A DNA stretch of 64,000 nucleotides from the NCBI RefSeq assembly GCF_900168015.1, contig NZ_FUYR01000003.1, positions 62,001 to 126,000 on the forward strand, given 5' to 3'. Shown here piece by piece: positions 13,681-63,361 of this stretch (its first letter is position 1; each line of letters opens with the position of its first letter). The stretch is from Daejeonella lutea (GTDB taxonomy: Bacteria; Bacteroidota; Bacteroidia; Sphingobacteriales; Sphingobacteriaceae). The position numbers were made by a program, and so were the translations under genes. The notes beneath the pieces are model-generated. The model did not search any database and was not told where the DNA came from. It was given only the letters and a program-made list of their open reading frames with translations.

Positions 13681-13815
13681 GTAAGTATCAAGTATCAGGT
13701 ATCAAGTATCAAGTGTCAAGTATAATGTATCAAGATCGGGCATCATAAGACATGATGAAGCGTGTCAAAGGGCAATTCGAATATGTCTTGATACTTAATA
13801 CTTGTTACTTGCTGA
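13681..13815. repeat. Degenerate word dyad (TATCAAG family) in the metH leader
   Basis: The left arm (13684-13734) is about seven imperfect copies of an AGTATCA/TATCAAG word; the right arm (13785-13813) is the reverse complement (CTTGATAC, TTAATACTTG). The arms flank about 50 nt of unrelated sequence. The element lies between the SAM riboswitch and the metH start, so in the metH transcript it would form a long irregular hairpin next to the start codon. It belongs to the intergenic dyad family described in the findings. Confidence 0.8.
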
Positions 13816-13842
13816 TCAAAAAGTCGGTATTATTGACCTTAA

Positions 13843-13941
13843 CTTATCTGTTCCCGAAATATTCGGGATAGAATGTAGCACCTTGTTAGCACAGGTTGCT
13901 AAGACTTCGCAGGGTCTAATCCCTCCGTCTTTCTGAATAAG
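13843..13941 (-). promoter_or_regulatory. SAM-I riboswitch (S-box) upstream of metH
   Basis: On the minus strand the segment begins CTTATTCAG and ends GATAAG, giving the P1 helix CTTAT(T/C)/GATAAG. Between these are the conserved SAM-I core blocks GACGGAGGGATTAGACCC, GCGAAGTC, TTAGCAACC, AAGGTGCTACATTC and a final hairpin CCCGAATATTTCGGG. The order and spacing match the SAM-I aptamer, which binds S-adenosylmethionine. The expression platform is not obvious: no GC-rich terminator follows, and the next 160 nt is the TATCAAG dyad, so the switch may act on translation or on that structure. It controls metH-metF. Confidence 0.93.
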
Positions 13942-13988
13942 CAGTGCAAAGGTGGGTGATTTTTTGCTGAAAAGCAAATTTGGCTATC

Positions 13989-14117
13989 TGTTACCAGCTT
14001 TCAGTTGCCAGGCTGGATGCATAGGCAAGTGCCCAATATAGTTATTCGGTACTTATTAAGCTTTAACAGCGTTTAGAAATCCACTTTGCCTGGCAACAGG
14101 TAACGGGTAACTTGCAA
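13989..14117. repeat. Degenerate word dyad with boundary motif, 3' of the Bax-inhibitor gene
   Basis: The left arm (13989-14016) holds TGTTACCAG, TTTCAGTTGCCAGGC; the right arm (14087-14117) holds GCCTGGCAACAGG, GTAACGGGTAAC, TTGCAAC, its reverse complement in degenerate form. Just before the right arm is AGCGTTTAGAAAT (14068-14080), the boundary motif shared with the 56-59 kb arrays. The right arm ends where the neighbouring gene's stop codon begins. Confidence 0.75.
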
Positions 14118-14855
14118 CTACTTCCTTCCTCCAAACAACCTCAACAACATAATAAACAAATTAATAAAGTCAAGGTACAAGGTCAATGCACCCATAATTA
14201 CCATTTTGTTTGCCGAAGCGTCGCCGTATTCAATTCCGGCAGCAATTCGTTTCAGTCGCTGCATGTCGTAAGCAGTGAGGCCGATGAAAAGAGCTACACC
14301 GATGAAGCTGATTATATAATCAAGTTGGCTACTGCCTAAAAAGAAGTTCACAAGGCTCGCAACAATGATACCCACCAGGGCCATCATAAGAATTGAACCG
14401 AATTTAGTTAAATCCGTGTTGGTAGTGTAACCCGCAATGGCCATTACAGCAAATAGAACTGATGCAGAAATAAAGCAGCCCAAAACCGATGCAGACGTAT
14501 ATACCAAAAGAATATAACTTAAGCTGATACCTGTGGCAGCTGAATAGAGCACGAACACCAGGGCCAATACGGGGAATGACAATCTGTTTAATCCAAACGA
14601 CATCAGCAGCACGAACGCCAATGGGGCGAACATCGCAATTGTTCCTAGTCCGGTTCTACTTCCAGTTGCGGGATCAATAAGTAATCTTAACAAGCCTGCA
14701 TCTGTCGAAAAGAAATATGCAAAGCCGGCTGAAAGTCCCAGTGCAATAAACATCCAAAGGAAAACATTTGGAAGAAAGTTCCTGGACGTGATTGTACCAC
14801 CGCGTTGTACTAATGGATTTTGATCGAATTCAAATGCGTTTCTTACTTCTGGCAT
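14118..14855 (-). CDS. Bax inhibitor-1/YccA family membrane protein
   Basis: A 245-residue integral membrane protein with seven hydrophobic segments and the BI-1 family character: a short polar N-terminus (MPEVRNAFEFDQNPLVQRGG), and a C-terminal helix LYLDFINLFIMLLRLFGGRK. The Asp in LYLDFINLF corresponds to the conserved C-terminal aspartate thought to matter for pH-dependent Ca2+ leak in bacterial homologues. Bacterial members (YccA, YbhL, BsYetJ) are inner-membrane proteins; YccA binds FtsH. It lies 33 bp downstream of an unknown gene on the same strand. Confidence 0.92.
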   Translation of the reverse strand: MPEVRNAFEFDQNPLVQRGGTITSRNFLPNVFLWMFIALGLSAGFAYFFSTDAGLLRLLIDPATGSRTGLGTIAMFAPLAFVLLMSFGLNRLSFPVLALVFVLYSAATGISLSYILLVYTSASVLGCFISASVLFAVMAIAGYTTNTDLTKFGSILMMALVGIIVASLVNFFLGSSQLDYIISFIGVALFIGLTAYDMQRLKRIAAGIEYGDASANKMVIMGALTLYLDFINLFIMLLRLFGGRK

Positions 14856-40920: not shown

Positions 40921-40975
40921 GTTTGCTGCACAGCCCCCGGCATACCGGTTCCACTACTTTCAACTATTCGCTTGG

Positions 40976-41103
40976 GGTTCCTCCCTTCGGTCGGAATGAC
41001 GGCCTCCGATTTGGAGGGAGGAGGGAGAGGGAGAAAAGCGAAGCTTCTTCTCCCTCTCCCTCTATAAAAAATATACCCGTCATTCCGACCGAAGGGAGGA
41101 ACC
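40976..41103. repeat. Large nested perfect inverted repeat
   Basis: Outer arms of 26 nt (40976-41001 and 41078-41103) are perfect reverse complements; the left begins GGTTCCTCCCTTCGG and the right ends GAAGGGAGGAACC. Inside is a second perfect 15-bp stem, GAGGGAGAGGGAGAA (41021-41035) with its complement at 41048-41062. The right arm contains GTCATTCCGACC, like common bacterial REP elements. It lies between the PQQ gene terminator and the LpxH-like gene. Overlapping open frames here are by-products of the repeat. Confidence 0.9.
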
Positions 41104-41189
41104 TCAGGAAGCTTTTCATTTCCCCAATTCCTTAATCCCACCTTAACATCCAGGTCATCTTCCGTCCATTACTTTGCAAACAAACCACC

Positions 41190-52296: not shown

Positions 52297-53520
52297 ATGA
52301 AAATGACCTTAATCCTAACCTTCCTTCTGGCTGTTTTCGCTGCATGCAGCAATACTGATCTTCCAAAAGAAAAAGCTGATTCTGCTAAGATTGCAAACCA
52401 GACTACTCGTCAGGCGGCTATTATTACCGGTGCACAACAGGTCGATAAATACCTGCCCATGCTGAAAGGCAAAAAGGTGGCGCTGGCTATTAACAACACT
52501 TCGGTAATCGATGGCAAACTTAGTATGGATACCTTGCTGAAGCTAGGAGTGAACATCGTCAAAGGTTTCGGTCCTGAGCATGGATTCCGCGGAAAGGCCA
52601 GTGCAGGTGCAAAAATAGGTGATGAAACAGACGAGAAAACCGGCGTGCCTCTCATATCCTTATACGGCTCAAAATACAAGCCTACAAAGGCAGATATGCA
52701 GGGAATAGATGTCATGGTCTTCGATATGCAGGATGTTGGCGTTCGCTTCTACACTTATCTTTCAACACTGCATTACATTATGGAAGCCTGTGCGGAGAAT
52801 AATGTTGATCTGATCGTTCTTGACCGCCCGAATCCTAACGACGGCTATGTTGACGGACCCGTTCGCGAACCTGATCAGGAATCATTCGTCGGAAAGCACG
52901 CAATTCCAATCCTTCACGGTCTTACATTTGGTGAATATGCCGGTATGATCAATGGGGAAGGCTGGCTTCCGGGAAAGGCGAAAAGTAAGCTGACCGTGAT
53001 TAAAATGCAAAACTATAACCACGGTAAACCATACATTCTCCCTATTGCACCCTCACCAAATCTAAATACACAGCAATCCATACTACTTTATCCTTCATTG
53101 TGCCTTTTTGAAGGTACAGTGATCAGCCAGGGGCGTGGAACTCTATATCCTTTCACCGTTCTTGGCAATCCTGAACTGAAAGGTAAATATGACTTCTCGT
53201 TCAAGCCAGTTTCTATACCCGGAATGAGTGAAAGTCCACCGCATATGGACAAAGATTGTTACGGAATTGATTTGAGAACGTACGACACTGGTACTTTTGC
53301 AAAAACCGGACGGATCAACCTTACCTGGCTCAAGCAGTTCTACGCAGATTATCCTAATAAAGCACAGTTCTTTCGTGCGGCAAACTTTGATCGGCTGGCT
53401 GGTACTAGCAAACTTAGAACCCAGATCATCGAAGGAAAATCTGAAGAGGAGATCCGTCAAAGCTGGGAACCGGCTTTGGGGCAGTATAAGGAGACGAGGA
53501 AGAAGTATCTGCTCTACTAG
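52297..53520 (+). CDS. Exo-beta-N-acetylmuramidase NamZ-type (DUF1343) lipoprotein
   Basis: A 407-residue DUF1343 protein. NamZ releases terminal N-acetylmuramic acid from peptidoglycan fragments. Residues 1-17 form a lipoprotein signal (MKMTLILTFLLAVFAAC, Cys17); the catalytic-loop signature GPEHGFRG is at residues 92-99 and the family block QDVGVRFYTYLSTLHYIMEA near 145-165. It should sit on the periplasmic or outer-surface side and could feed MurNAc to a pathway ending in MurQ at 15.5 kb. Confidence 0.87.
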   Translation: MKMTLILTFLLAVFAACSNTDLPKEKADSAKIANQTTRQAAIITGAQQVDKYLPMLKGKKVALAINNTSVIDGKLSMDTLLKLGVNIVKGFGPEHGFRGKASAGAKIGDETDEKTGVPLISLYGSKYKPTKADMQGIDVMVFDMQDVGVRFYTYLSTLHYIMEACAENNVDLIVLDRPNPNDGYVDGPVREPDQESFVGKHAIPILHGLTFGEYAGMINGEGWLPGKAKSKLTVIKMQNYNHGKPYILPIAPSPNLNTQQSILLYPSLCLFEGTVISQGRGTLYPFTVLGNPELKGKYDFSFKPVSIPGMSESPPHMDKDCYGIDLRTYDTGTFAKTGRINLTWLKQFYADYPNKAQFFRAANFDRLAGTSKLRTQIIEGKSEEEIRQSWEPALGQYKETRKKYLLY

Positions 53521-53670
53521 TTGACAGTTGACAGTGGACGGTTGACAATGTCGTTCTGACGAATAAACCGTCAACAAGATTTCTCTTTTCATGAATAAAA
53601 CGTGTGTCGAACCGATTAGGTACGTATGCTAACTGTCAACTGTCAACTGTCAGCTTTGAACTGTCAACTT
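53521..53670. repeat. Degenerate word dyad (GTTGACAGT family)
   Basis: The left arm (53521-53549) is GTTGACAGTTGACAGTGGAC followed by GGTTGACAATG; the right arm (53637-53670) is AACTGTCAACTGTCAACTGT followed by CAGC and GAACTGTCAAC, the reverse complement in degenerate form. The centre (about 90 nt) shows no obvious structure. It fills the spacer between two plus-strand genes. Confidence 0.8.
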
Positions 53671-56458: not shown

Positions 56459-56459
56459 G

Positions 56460-56634
56460 GAACGTTATACGTTATACGTTGTACGTTATACGTTCACGTG
56501 TTAATGCTTAAGTTATTGGTTGTAAGTGTAAAGTATAATACAGTTTATAGTAACTTCCAACTTCCAACCTACAACCTACAACTCTTTCCAAGCGTCTAGA
56601 TACGTACAACGTATAACGTACAACGTACTACTCC
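56460..56634. repeat. Nested degenerate word dyad (ACGTTATACG family)
   Basis: Outer arms: AACGTTATACGTTATACGTT and GTACGTTATACG on the left (56461-56492), ACGTACAACGTATAACGTAC and AACGTAC on the right (56602-56628). Each arm ends at a boundary motif: GTTCACGTGTTAATGCTT (56492-56509, reverse) and AGCGTCTAGATAC (56591-56603, forward). Inside is a second dyad with other words (GGTTGTAAG / CCTACAACCTACAAC). The element separates a plus-strand and a minus-strand gene that converge. Confidence 0.82.
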
Positions 56635-57266
56635 TTCCCCATATACTTAATCTGACTATACTCCACCGCACAATCCTGTCCTACCGGGGATTGAGAGTAA
56701 AACCCAATCATCATATTATCAGTCTTATGATAAACAAAATTACGGACCACCTCCCATTGCCTGCCATCCTGTGAGGTGAGGAAAGTAAAGACGCGGCCGA
56801 CCTTGGTCACGCGAAGATAGATCTCCCGGTTCTGCGGTATATTAAAATAGCTGTCGTCTGTGATCTTGTTTTTAACTACTGAATTTCCCAGGATCAATTT
56901 ATCGCCAGTATATTGAAACAGGATTTTCGCCCAATTATCCTTGTCGCTGTAAACCAGCACAGCACCGCCATCATACCTGCCTTCAAAATCAGGTTTAACC
57001 TTTGCAGAGAAGTCGAAATCTTTTGCAGGAGTAAAGAGCAGTTTCGGAGCATTGTTGAAAAAGGCCGTCCCGCTAGCCGGATTATGCAGGTCAGTTTTCT
57101 CGCCGGCTGTCACGATCAGGGCGCTGTCAGAAAGGATTTTTACCTCCTTCATCTTGTCGATCACTATGAATGGTGGCATTGCTTTGATGGAACCGGAATA
57201 AACTTCTGGGTTTTGTGCTTTTAAGAGCGTCGGAATTAGGAGGAGGAGGGTTATTAACCGGGACAT
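56628..57266 (-). CDS. Secreted DUF1349 (concanavalin-like) protein
   Basis: A 212-residue secreted protein (signal peptide MSRLITLLLLIPTLLKAQ) with the DUF1349 concanavalin-A-like domain: FSAKVKPDFEGRYDGGAVLVYSDKDNWAKILFQYTGD in the middle and a FLTSQDGRQWEVVRNFVYHKTDNMMIGFYSQSPVGQ stretch typical of the family. It probably binds a sugar or polymer. Its 3' end overlaps the right arm of the neighbouring dyad by a few bases. Isolated gene. Confidence 0.85.
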   Translation of the reverse strand: MSRLITLLLLIPTLLKAQNPEVYSGSIKAMPPFIVIDKMKEVKILSDSALIVTAGEKTDLHNPASGTAFFNNAPKLLFTPAKDFDFSAKVKPDFEGRYDGGAVLVYSDKDNWAKILFQYTGDKLILGNSVVKNKITDDSYFNIPQNREIYLRVTKVGRVFTFLTSQDGRQWEVVRNFVYHKTDNMMIGFYSQSPVGQDCAVEYSQIKYMGKE

Positions 57267-57273
57267 CTTGTTT

Positions 57274-57664
57274 AGTTGACAGTGGACAGTTGACAGCGAC
57301 GAGGGATTTCAACCTGACGTACCTTCTCAGATTTAAATTCTCACTACTAAGTTAATCAATGCGAATAACTTTTAATGCGTTTAGAAACAGTCAACTCTCA
57401 ACTCCTTTGCAGCGTTTAGTAATTATCAACCGTCCGCTAGTTGGAGCGTTTAGAAACTGTCAACCGTCAACTTTCAACTGTCCACTAGTTGGAGCGTTTA
57501 GAAACTTTCCACTTTCCACTTTCCACTATCAACCGTCCACAAGTTGCAGCGTTTAGAAACTGTCAACTGTCAACCGTCAACTTACAACCGTCCGCTAGTT
57601 GGAGCGTTTAGAAACTTTCCACTTTCCACTTTCCACTTTCCACTGTCAACCGTCAACCGTCCAC
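57274..57664. repeat. Tandem boundary-motif array with variable word blocks
   Basis: The most elaborate repeat. A short left arm GTTGACAGTGGACAGTTGAC (57274-57294) faces a long right array in which the motif AGCGTTTAGAAAC recurs at 57377, 57411 (diverged), 57445, 57493, 57548 and 57603. Between motif copies are 34-55 nt made of CCGTCAAC, TTCAACTG, TTTCCACT words in different numbers and combinations. Three copies are preceded by CTAGTTGG and one by CAAGTTGC. It lies upstream of the minus-strand HxlR gene's 3' end and beyond DUF1349's start, with no coding frame. It looks like an array that grows by copying whole motif+word units. Confidence 0.85.
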
Positions 57665-57669
57665 TGACT

Positions 57670-61384: not shown

Positions 61385-63361
61385 ATGACAAGATTTTTTT
61401 ATTCCAGTTCTATTAGTTCCTTTTTAGAAGCACCAGAAAATGAAATACTCGGAATCCTTGCCAAGAATAATGAATTCGCGCTAGAGCAAACACAACGAGA
61501 TGCTTGGCAACAGGAAATTGAAATACTAAAGACTTCGCTAAAGTCATTTACAGGGGGGGTGTTCTTTGAGTACGCCATTCCAAGAATGGGACGAAGGGTG
61601 GACGTTATACTAATTATTCAAAGTGTGATATTTGTTGTCGAATTCAAAATTGGAGAAAAGGATTTTCTTTCTAGCGCTATCGACCAAGTATGGGATTACT
61701 CGCTTGATCTGAGAAATTTCCACGAGACCAGCCAGAATAATTTAATTGCTCCAATTTTAGTTGCAACTGCAGCAAGATCCATTCCTTATAATCTCTATGA
61801 AGATACTGCAAACGATAACTTATTGGTGCCGATAAAAGCAAATTCTACTACTCTTACCAGTAGCATCGAAAACGTACTGTCCGTTTCGAAAGGTAACCCA
61901 ATCTTTATGGAAGAATGGAGCAATGGTAGATATTCACCCACACCGACCATTATTGAAGCTGCAATTGCGCTATATAGCGAACATTCAGTAATCGATATAT
62001 CAAGGAGCGACGCTAGTGCTATTAATTTAACTGAGACAAGTAATGCTGTTTCAGAAGTTATTCGGGACGCGAAATCTAATTCAAAAAAAGCTATTTGTTT
62101 TGTTACAGGCGTTCCGGGGGCTGGTAAGACTTTAGTGGGGCTAGATATTGCGACACAAAACTTGAGCAAAAATGACAATTCCACTTCAGTATTTTTATCT
62201 GGAAACGGCCCCCTAGTAGCTGTACTCAGGGAAGCATTAACAAGAGACAAGGTTCGAAGGGAAAAACTAAACGGTAATAAAATAACGAAGGGAGAAGCCT
62301 TGCGGGGTGTGAAGACATTTATCCAAAATATACATCATTTCAGAGATGAATGTTTAGTTGATGAGAGTAGGGCTCCCTTTGATCATGTGGCTATTTTTGA
62401 TGAAGCTCAACGAGCATGGGATCAAGTCCAAACGGCAAATTTCATGCAAAGGAAAAAAGGCAAGCCAGGCTTTACTTTTTCCGAGCCAGAATTTTTGATC
62501 TCATGTTTAGACCGTCATAAAGATTGGGCTGTTATTGTTTGCTTGGTTGGCGGAGGCCAAGAAATTCACACTGGGGAGGGAGGCATAGCCGAGTGGATCG
62601 CATCATTAAATCGATCGTTCCCTCATTGGGAAGTGAATATTTCCTCGAGATTGATGGATAGCGAATACGCTGCTGGAAAAGCATTGCAGTTATTCACAAA
62701 CAAGTCGTCTGTTTCCGTGACGGATGAGTTGCATCTTGCAGTTTCGATGAGATCTTTCCGTGCAGAAAATGTATCCCATTTGGTAAAAAGCATATTGGAT
62801 TTTGAAATTACAGAAGCTCAAAAGAACTTAGCATTAATTAAAGACAAATACCCTTTGGTACTTACCAGAGATCTAGCAAAGGCCAAAGCATGGTTAAAGT
62901 CGAACGCTCGTGGAACAGAGCGGTATGGTATTGTTGCTTCGTCGCAAGCTCAAAGGTTGAAACCATATGCGATCGATATTAGAGTTCCCATCGATCCAGT
63001 ACATTGGTTTTTGGATCCGAAAGAAGATGTAAGGTCTTCGTATTATCTCGAAGATGCGGCAACAGAATTCCAAGTGCAAGGTTTAGAATTGGATTGGGCT
63101 TGCGTCACTTGGGACGGTGATTTCCGTTACTCCGATGATGGTTGGGCTCCCTTTTCGTTCGTTGGAGACAAATGGCAAAACATTAAAAAAGAAGCACGAC
63201 AACAATATATCAAAAACGCATACAGAGTCCTTTTGACGAGGGCTAGACAAGGTATGGTGATCGTCGTGCCTTTCGGGAGTAGTGAAGACAACACGAGAAG
63301 GCCGGAATATTATGATGGGACATTTAATTATCTTCAGAGTATCGATTTGGAAATGATTTAG
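61385..63361 (+). CDS. PD-(D/E)XK nuclease + DUF2075 superfamily 1 helicase-like protein
   Basis: A 658-residue fusion. The N-terminal part has the nuclease motif D73 ... E86-x-K88 ([17 protein letters not shown]). The second part has Walker A GVPGAGKT (242-249), Walker [10 protein letters not shown] (334-342, DE at 339-340), a [15 protein letters not shown] motif (386-400) and, near residues 625-640, [19 protein letters not shown], a superfamily 1 motif VI-like stretch, matching DUF2075. Such nuclease-helicase fusions occur in defence islands, but no partner gene is visible within the window. It lies alone at the end of the window with AT-richer coding sequence than its neighbours, consistent with acquisition by transfer. 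Confidence 0.88.

Follow-up and report, generated by a model that had tools for sequence, protein, structure and literature searches.

The 23S rRNA intervening sequence (IVS) of Coxiella forms an inverted-repeat stem that contains an S23p ORF; two to three tandem heptamers lie beside the ORF, and their copy number varies between strains (PMC4990558). Heptanucleotide repeats of the cyanobacterial STRR type are found in P6b of the Nostoc tRNA-Leu intron (PMC3488679), TAACTGA repeats in Beggiatoaceae, Cyanobacteria, and five Bacteroidetes (PMC4679880), and further heptamer repeats in Xanthomonas (GGGAATC) and Nostoc (PMC4692102) as well as in Geobacter (PMC2700814). Neither for heptamer repeats in bacteria nor for the proteins of the IVP/S23 family (PF05635; 23S rRNA IVP, S23, or four-helix bundle) is there an accepted origin or function, decades after both became known.

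The locus considered here is part of a 64,000-nucleotide stretch of the Daejeonella lutea genome (the window; contig NZ_FUYR01000003.1, positions 62,001 to 126,000). It resembles the STRR-type repeats in being built of tandem seven-base units, which keep a strict register through units 1-6, and it resembles an IVS in possessing an inverted-repeat stem, its 23-nt left arm pairing with each unit. It is located between hxlR and a DUF1349 gene, not within a 23S rRNA gene, and no IVP ORF is present in the window, so that the loop of the array does not hold one.

Anatomy of the array and of neighboring heptamer loci

The features of the locus, together with the other heptamer loci of the window, are as follows:

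13681-14120, no strand: heptamer word clusters on either side of the SAM riboswitch, upstream of metH
13841-13943, minus strand: SAM riboswitch (RF00162) upstream of metH
53518-53669, no strand: separate heptamer hairpin made of the array's words, with a GTTGACA left arm directly after a stop codon and a TGTCAAC right arm
56459-56632, no strand: separate heptamer hairpin of ACGTTAT and ACGTATA words, with the diverged motif AGCGTCTAGATAC
56628-57266, minus strand: DUF1349 protein (PF07081), the left arm lying directly 5′ of its start codon
57274-57296, plus strand: left (opposite) arm AGTTGACAGTGGACAGTTGACAG, 23 nt, G-type heptamers, ending 7 nt before the DUF1349 start codon
57297-57375, no strand: loop separating the arms, its first bases CGACGAGG resembling the inner flank CGGTGAGG of IVP element L218
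57376-57410, plus strand: unit 1, TGCGTTTAGAAAC plus words, 35 nt
57411-57444, plus strand: unit 2, diverged motif AGCGTTTAGTAAT, 34 nt
57445-57492, plus strand: unit 3, TGTCAAC type, 48 nt
57493-57547, plus strand: unit 4, TTTCCAC type, 55 nt
57548-57602, plus strand: unit 5, TGTCAAC type, 55 nt
57603-57665, plus strand: unit 6, TTTCCAC type followed by TGTCAAC/CGTCAAC, ending 4 nt from the hxlR stop codon
57670-58092, minus strand: HxlR-family regulator (PF01638), the array lying directly 3′ of its stop codon
58828-58990, no strand: separate heptamer hairpin of ACGT words, with motif AGCGTTTAGAAAA on the minus strand

A preliminary description had reported six motif copies, one of them diverged, with variable word blocks of 34-55 nt. 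The array at 57376-57665 does contain six units of AGCGTTTAGAAAC plus words, starting at 57376, 57411, 57445, 57493, 57548, and 57603, which gives spacings of 35, 34, 48, 55, and 55. The motif is exact at the last four of these positions; the second copy, with two mismatches, is the diverged one, and the first differs by a single change. Ten matches to AGCGTTTAGAAAC with two mismatches or fewer are found in the window, compared with a mean of 1.7 and a maximum of 5 in shuffles, and the complete 4.03 Mb genome contains seven exact copies versus none of a backward-read control pattern.

The words of the array (TGTCAAC, CGTCAAC, TTTCCAC, and similar) keep a strict 7-base register that begins with the AAC of AGCGTTTAGAAAC (AACTGTC AACCGTC AACTTTC ... 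or AACTTTC CACTTTC ...), and the "boundary" motif and the "word" blocks fall within this one common register. The asymmetry first described for the locus is borne out, a single 23-nt left arm standing opposite six right-arm units, each composed of a hairpin-tip motif and words; the reverse complement of AGTTGACAGTGGACAGTTGACAG aligns with all six, the best being unit 5 (21/23). Elsewhere in the locus, positions 57311-57341 of the loop region gave a 31-bp, 97% match to Listeria phage LIS04, a single record that is probably due to chance. A strong PADLOC match to the candidate defence family PDC-S41 (E 9e-288) was recorded at window positions 61385-63361 on the plus strand.

The heptamer arrays of this genome were counted in 464 kb of sampled regions, which contain 52 non-simple arrays of period 7 and 0-5 of each other period between 5 and 12. 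Their dispersal is that of STRR-type repeats, 31 of 34 array loci in the samples being intergenic. The words of the array recur elsewhere, as had been claimed, and word matches between heptamer loci are sometimes as good as those within one locus. A clear opposite arm is uncommon (5/52 arrays score 36 or more); a general rule of arm pairing is thus unsupported, many arrays being one-sided. The window also possesses a long intergenic inverted repeat at 40975-41105 (GGTTCCTCCCTTCGGTCGGAATGACGG ... CCGTCATTCCGACCGAAGGGAGGAACC) that is devoid of heptamer words.

Copying of whole heptamers and whole units

The array shows whole-heptamer and whole-unit copying together with one-sided growth. The last four spacings (34, 48, 55, and 55) are all 6 mod 7; those units therefore differ by whole heptamers. 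Their word parts tend to alternate, with 76% identity between units 3 and 5 and 70% between units 4 and 6, versus 52% between units 3 and 6 and 57% between units 5 and 6; this is a tendency only, since the neighboring units 4 and 5 are also 71% identical. The genome has a sister array, L073 (G000:C10, about 617.6-618.0 kb), of nine units with the motif variant AGCGTTTAGTAAC, in which units three apart are 100% identical in three pairs, amounting to an exact three-unit higher-order repeat. The whole-heptamer steps, the alternation of units, and the sister array all support the initial suggestion that growth proceeded by the copying of motif-plus-word units and not by the acquisition of spacers.

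A related arrangement is found in the same-genus genome G003, where one left arm is followed by four units of 61-62 bp with AGCGTTTAGAAAC (L036). Orthologs of the DUF1349 gene are absent from the 19 relatives and, therefore, hxlR and metH were used to compare the locus within the genus. The only close hxlR ortholog found, that of G007, possesses on its 3′ side about 30 nt of heptamer words without the motif, from which it follows that unit number is not fixed. The check for invariance first proposed (identical units in distant strains) was run at the level of species, between which unit number differs.

In the orthologous metH region, the heptamer words differ from one related species to another. 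This holds as well for those preceding the metH start, where a hairpin nevertheless seems to be kept, so that heptamers may make up the expression platform of the metH SAM riboswitch. Several relatives possess, downstream of metH, a gene for a four-helix-bundle IVP between heptamer words, which is the reason that the flanks of PF05635 genes were tested (see below). There is no spacer between metH and metF in this genome and almost none in G016; in many relatives a heptamer arm directly after the metH stop codon is followed by an IVP ORF and then by heptamer words before metF. On a quick tree of modest support, at least two origins are required for the IVPs found here. The pattern fits insertion or replacement of IVP elements, and loss in D. 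lutea is possible.

Two further arrangements were seen in this region. Between metH and metF of G005 (L153), another small ORF, hydrophobic by translation, is located between weak heptamer-like arms where relatives have an IVP. Downstream of metH in G001 (L147), there is a one-sided array of left-arm words with the separators GCAAGCGACAACAAGA and GTAAAAGAGA; it has the same plan as the array at 57376-57665 and another motif.

IVP genes inside heptamer hairpins

The location of IVP genes inside heptamer hairpins, seen in Bacteroidota, Cyanobacteria, and others, is a new observation, and no paper joining the IVP/S23 family with such heptamer repeats was found in the open-licence literature. In the arm test, 220-bp flanks were compared by local alignment using a chosen score cut-off. 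Complementary flanking arms with a score of 30 or more surround 21/26 IVP genes and 4/331 control ORFs of similar size (p=6e-17). With 60 distinct IVP elements, 44 are situated in heptamer hairpins, versus the same 4/331 control genes; the first 26 genes are part of the 60 elements, and the two counts are therefore not independent. Inspection by eye had singled out the loci first, and the tests followed; the second genome set was fresh.

The own arms of the 60 elements align with a median score of 35.5, compared with 17 for foreign arms, and their polarity is strongly biased, G exceeding C in the left arm of 40 and the reverse holding for 2. Among arms of at least 22 nt, the best lag is 7 in 35 cases and 8 in 4. 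The same layout is found for IVPs on plasmids of Cyanobacteria, Azospirillum, Gemmatirosa, and Riemerella, with scores of 29 or more in 13/16. The nearest solved structures to IVP are 2gsc (Xanthomonas campestris XCC0516) and 2rld. IVP genes with heptamer or octamer words were also seen inside CRISPR operons (cas6-cas4; cas10-cmr3), namely at L191 and L197, which are on cyanobacterial plasmids, and at L205.

Heptamer abundance was measured as the number of matches to AACN4AACN4AACN4AAC and its reversal, a measure that favours AAC words and misses others. Across 100 genomes it rises with the PF05635 count (rho 0.69), a correlational result for which phylogeny was only partly corrected; the 22 genomes without PF05635 have a median of 2 and a maximum of 17 matches, and the 78 with it a median of 54.5. 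A replicate with 110 further genomes, again correlational, gave a rho of 0.64; in this set some genomes with five or more IVPs have few heptamer matches, and G187 and G196, rich in matches but devoid of PF05635, are clear exceptions to the association. When genome size and Y1 transposases were controlled, the partial correlation was 0.63 and Y1 itself was unlinked. Contrasts within genera between members with and without IVP go in the expected direction in 6/7 genera.

Arrays of period 8 also correlate with PF05635 (rho 0.62); they are therefore not a clean negative control, and unit length can be 7 or 8, a choice that may depend on the IVP subfamily. Period 8 was noticed instead of or beside period 7 in G033, G037, G086, G097, G060, and G065, each of which has several PF05635 genes. 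Given IVP genes in heptamer hairpins of several phyla and an association at the level of genomes, the repeats and the protein become one testable question.

Origin of the array and comparison with known systems

Other loci of the D. lutea genome do carry an IVP ORF, there being eleven PF05635 matches, nine of them with arms scoring 30 or more. The arms of one such element, L218 (G000:C4:29862-30167), consist of the array's own words, GTTGACA and TGTCAAC, and its inner flank is similar to that of the array (GTTGACAGCGnnGAGG; GTTGACAGCGGTGAGG in L218 versus GTTGACAGCGACGAGG at the array locus). By eye, the IVP elements with ACGT words and the ORF-less hairpins seem to have a GGCGGATAACA-like inner sequence in common. 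The proposal that AGCGTTTAGAAAC is itself a terminal motif of IVP elements was discarded, since no exact copy was found in the inner flanks of those elements. A link of the array to an IVP element is suggested by shared words, by polarity, and by a short match of the inner flanks.

We place at roughly 55% the probability that this ORF-less hairpin, amplified on one arm, is a relative of the IVP hairpin elements. ORF-carrying hairpins would be the parent elements, themselves presumably relatives of the 23S rRNA IVS, and ORF-less hairpins and arrays such as that at 57376-57665 would derive from them. The pentameric IVP protein may bind the folded arms and help them to be copied or moved; whole words and units would then be gained through slippage and unequal exchange, and copying templated by the hairpin could keep both arms complementary. 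A wider and more tentative proposal is that IVP/S23 proteins drive a self-amplifying hairpin element, the signature of which is words of 7 or 8 bases, that underlies many bacterial heptamer repeats and possibly STRRs and 23S rRNA IVSs, with ORF-less arrays as its overgrown products.

The locus might instead be an ordinary heptanucleotide (STRR-type) repeat that grew through slippage of the polymerase and unequal exchange; no dedicated protein would be involved, and IVP genes would be tolerated in such spacers or collect there. The register, the length steps, and the higher-order repeats are as such processes would give, an excess of heptamers in bacteria has long been known (PMC4692102, PMC4679880), and two genomes without a PF05635 match are rich in arrays (104 heptamer matches in G187 and 48 in G196). 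Nevertheless, complementary arms are about 67 times commoner around IVP genes than around control genes, the polarity of IVP-element arms is fixed across phyla, and most IVP-less genomes have almost no arrays, which makes slippage somewhat doubtful as the whole explanation.

Slightly less probable is that the hairpins are mainly transcription terminators or other 3′-end mRNA structures after stop codons, selected for RNA pairing, and that the array is a neutral overgrowth of one. Many heptamer word clusters begin at a stop codon or only a few nt away from one; three species without heptamers (L147, L155, and L158) have, by eye, an ordinary terminator-like hairpin upstream of metH; and the minus-strand transcript of the array locus folds better than shuffles (z -2.6). 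The plus strand, however, folds no better than shuffles (z -0.4), no intrinsic terminator (a stem followed by a T run) was called within the array, and both the heptamer periodicity and the presence of IVP genes in loops are left unexplained. A search of 53-60 kb with Rfam gave no match. Slippage and selection for terminator hairpins can each be partly true alongside the derivation from IVP elements.

Dispersed intergenic palindromes resemble REPs and REPINs. Movement by a Y1 (TnpA-REP) transposase, as with REP/RAYT elements, is nonetheless very improbable for the array: PF01797 (Y1_Tnp) has 0 matches in this genome, G002, G026, and G034 possess 397-687 heptamer matches yet no Y1_Tnp gene, and Y1 shows no partial correlation with heptamer abundance. 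A CRISPR-like repeat-spacer array, brought to mind by the regular alternation of a short motif with variable blocks, can be dismissed, the spacers being low-complexity heptamer words common to other loci, the units duplicating as blocks, the ten neighboring proteins giving no PADLOC cas match, and the array no phage match (the one 31-bp match lies outside it).

The array at 57376-57665 is a convenient substrate with which to measure unit turnover. It may be compared with four described systems. With the 23S rRNA IVS of Coxiella and Leptospira (PMC4990558), the elements share an IVP-family ORF in an inverted-repeat loop and, in Coxiella, heptamers of variable number; they differ in being located between protein genes, in their long degenerate heptamer arms, and in being mostly ORF-less, the array included. 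REP/REPIN-RAYT systems are similarly dispersed intergenic palindromes with a few protein-coding relatives, whereas here the genome has no Y1 transposase, the words are of 7 bases, and the associated protein is a four-helix bundle. The cyanobacterial STRRs, including Nostoc P6b, are likewise degenerate heptanucleotide repeats of variable copy number that pair as hairpins; no protein is linked to them in their descriptions, whereas the present locus is a higher-order array of motif plus words with one arm amplified. Lastly, the TAACTGA (PMC4679880) and GGGAATC (PMC4692102) repeats are also intergenic tandem heptamers, sometimes with heterogeneous words, but they have one main word per genome and have been read as regulator or G4 sites, whereas here many words and paired arms are found.
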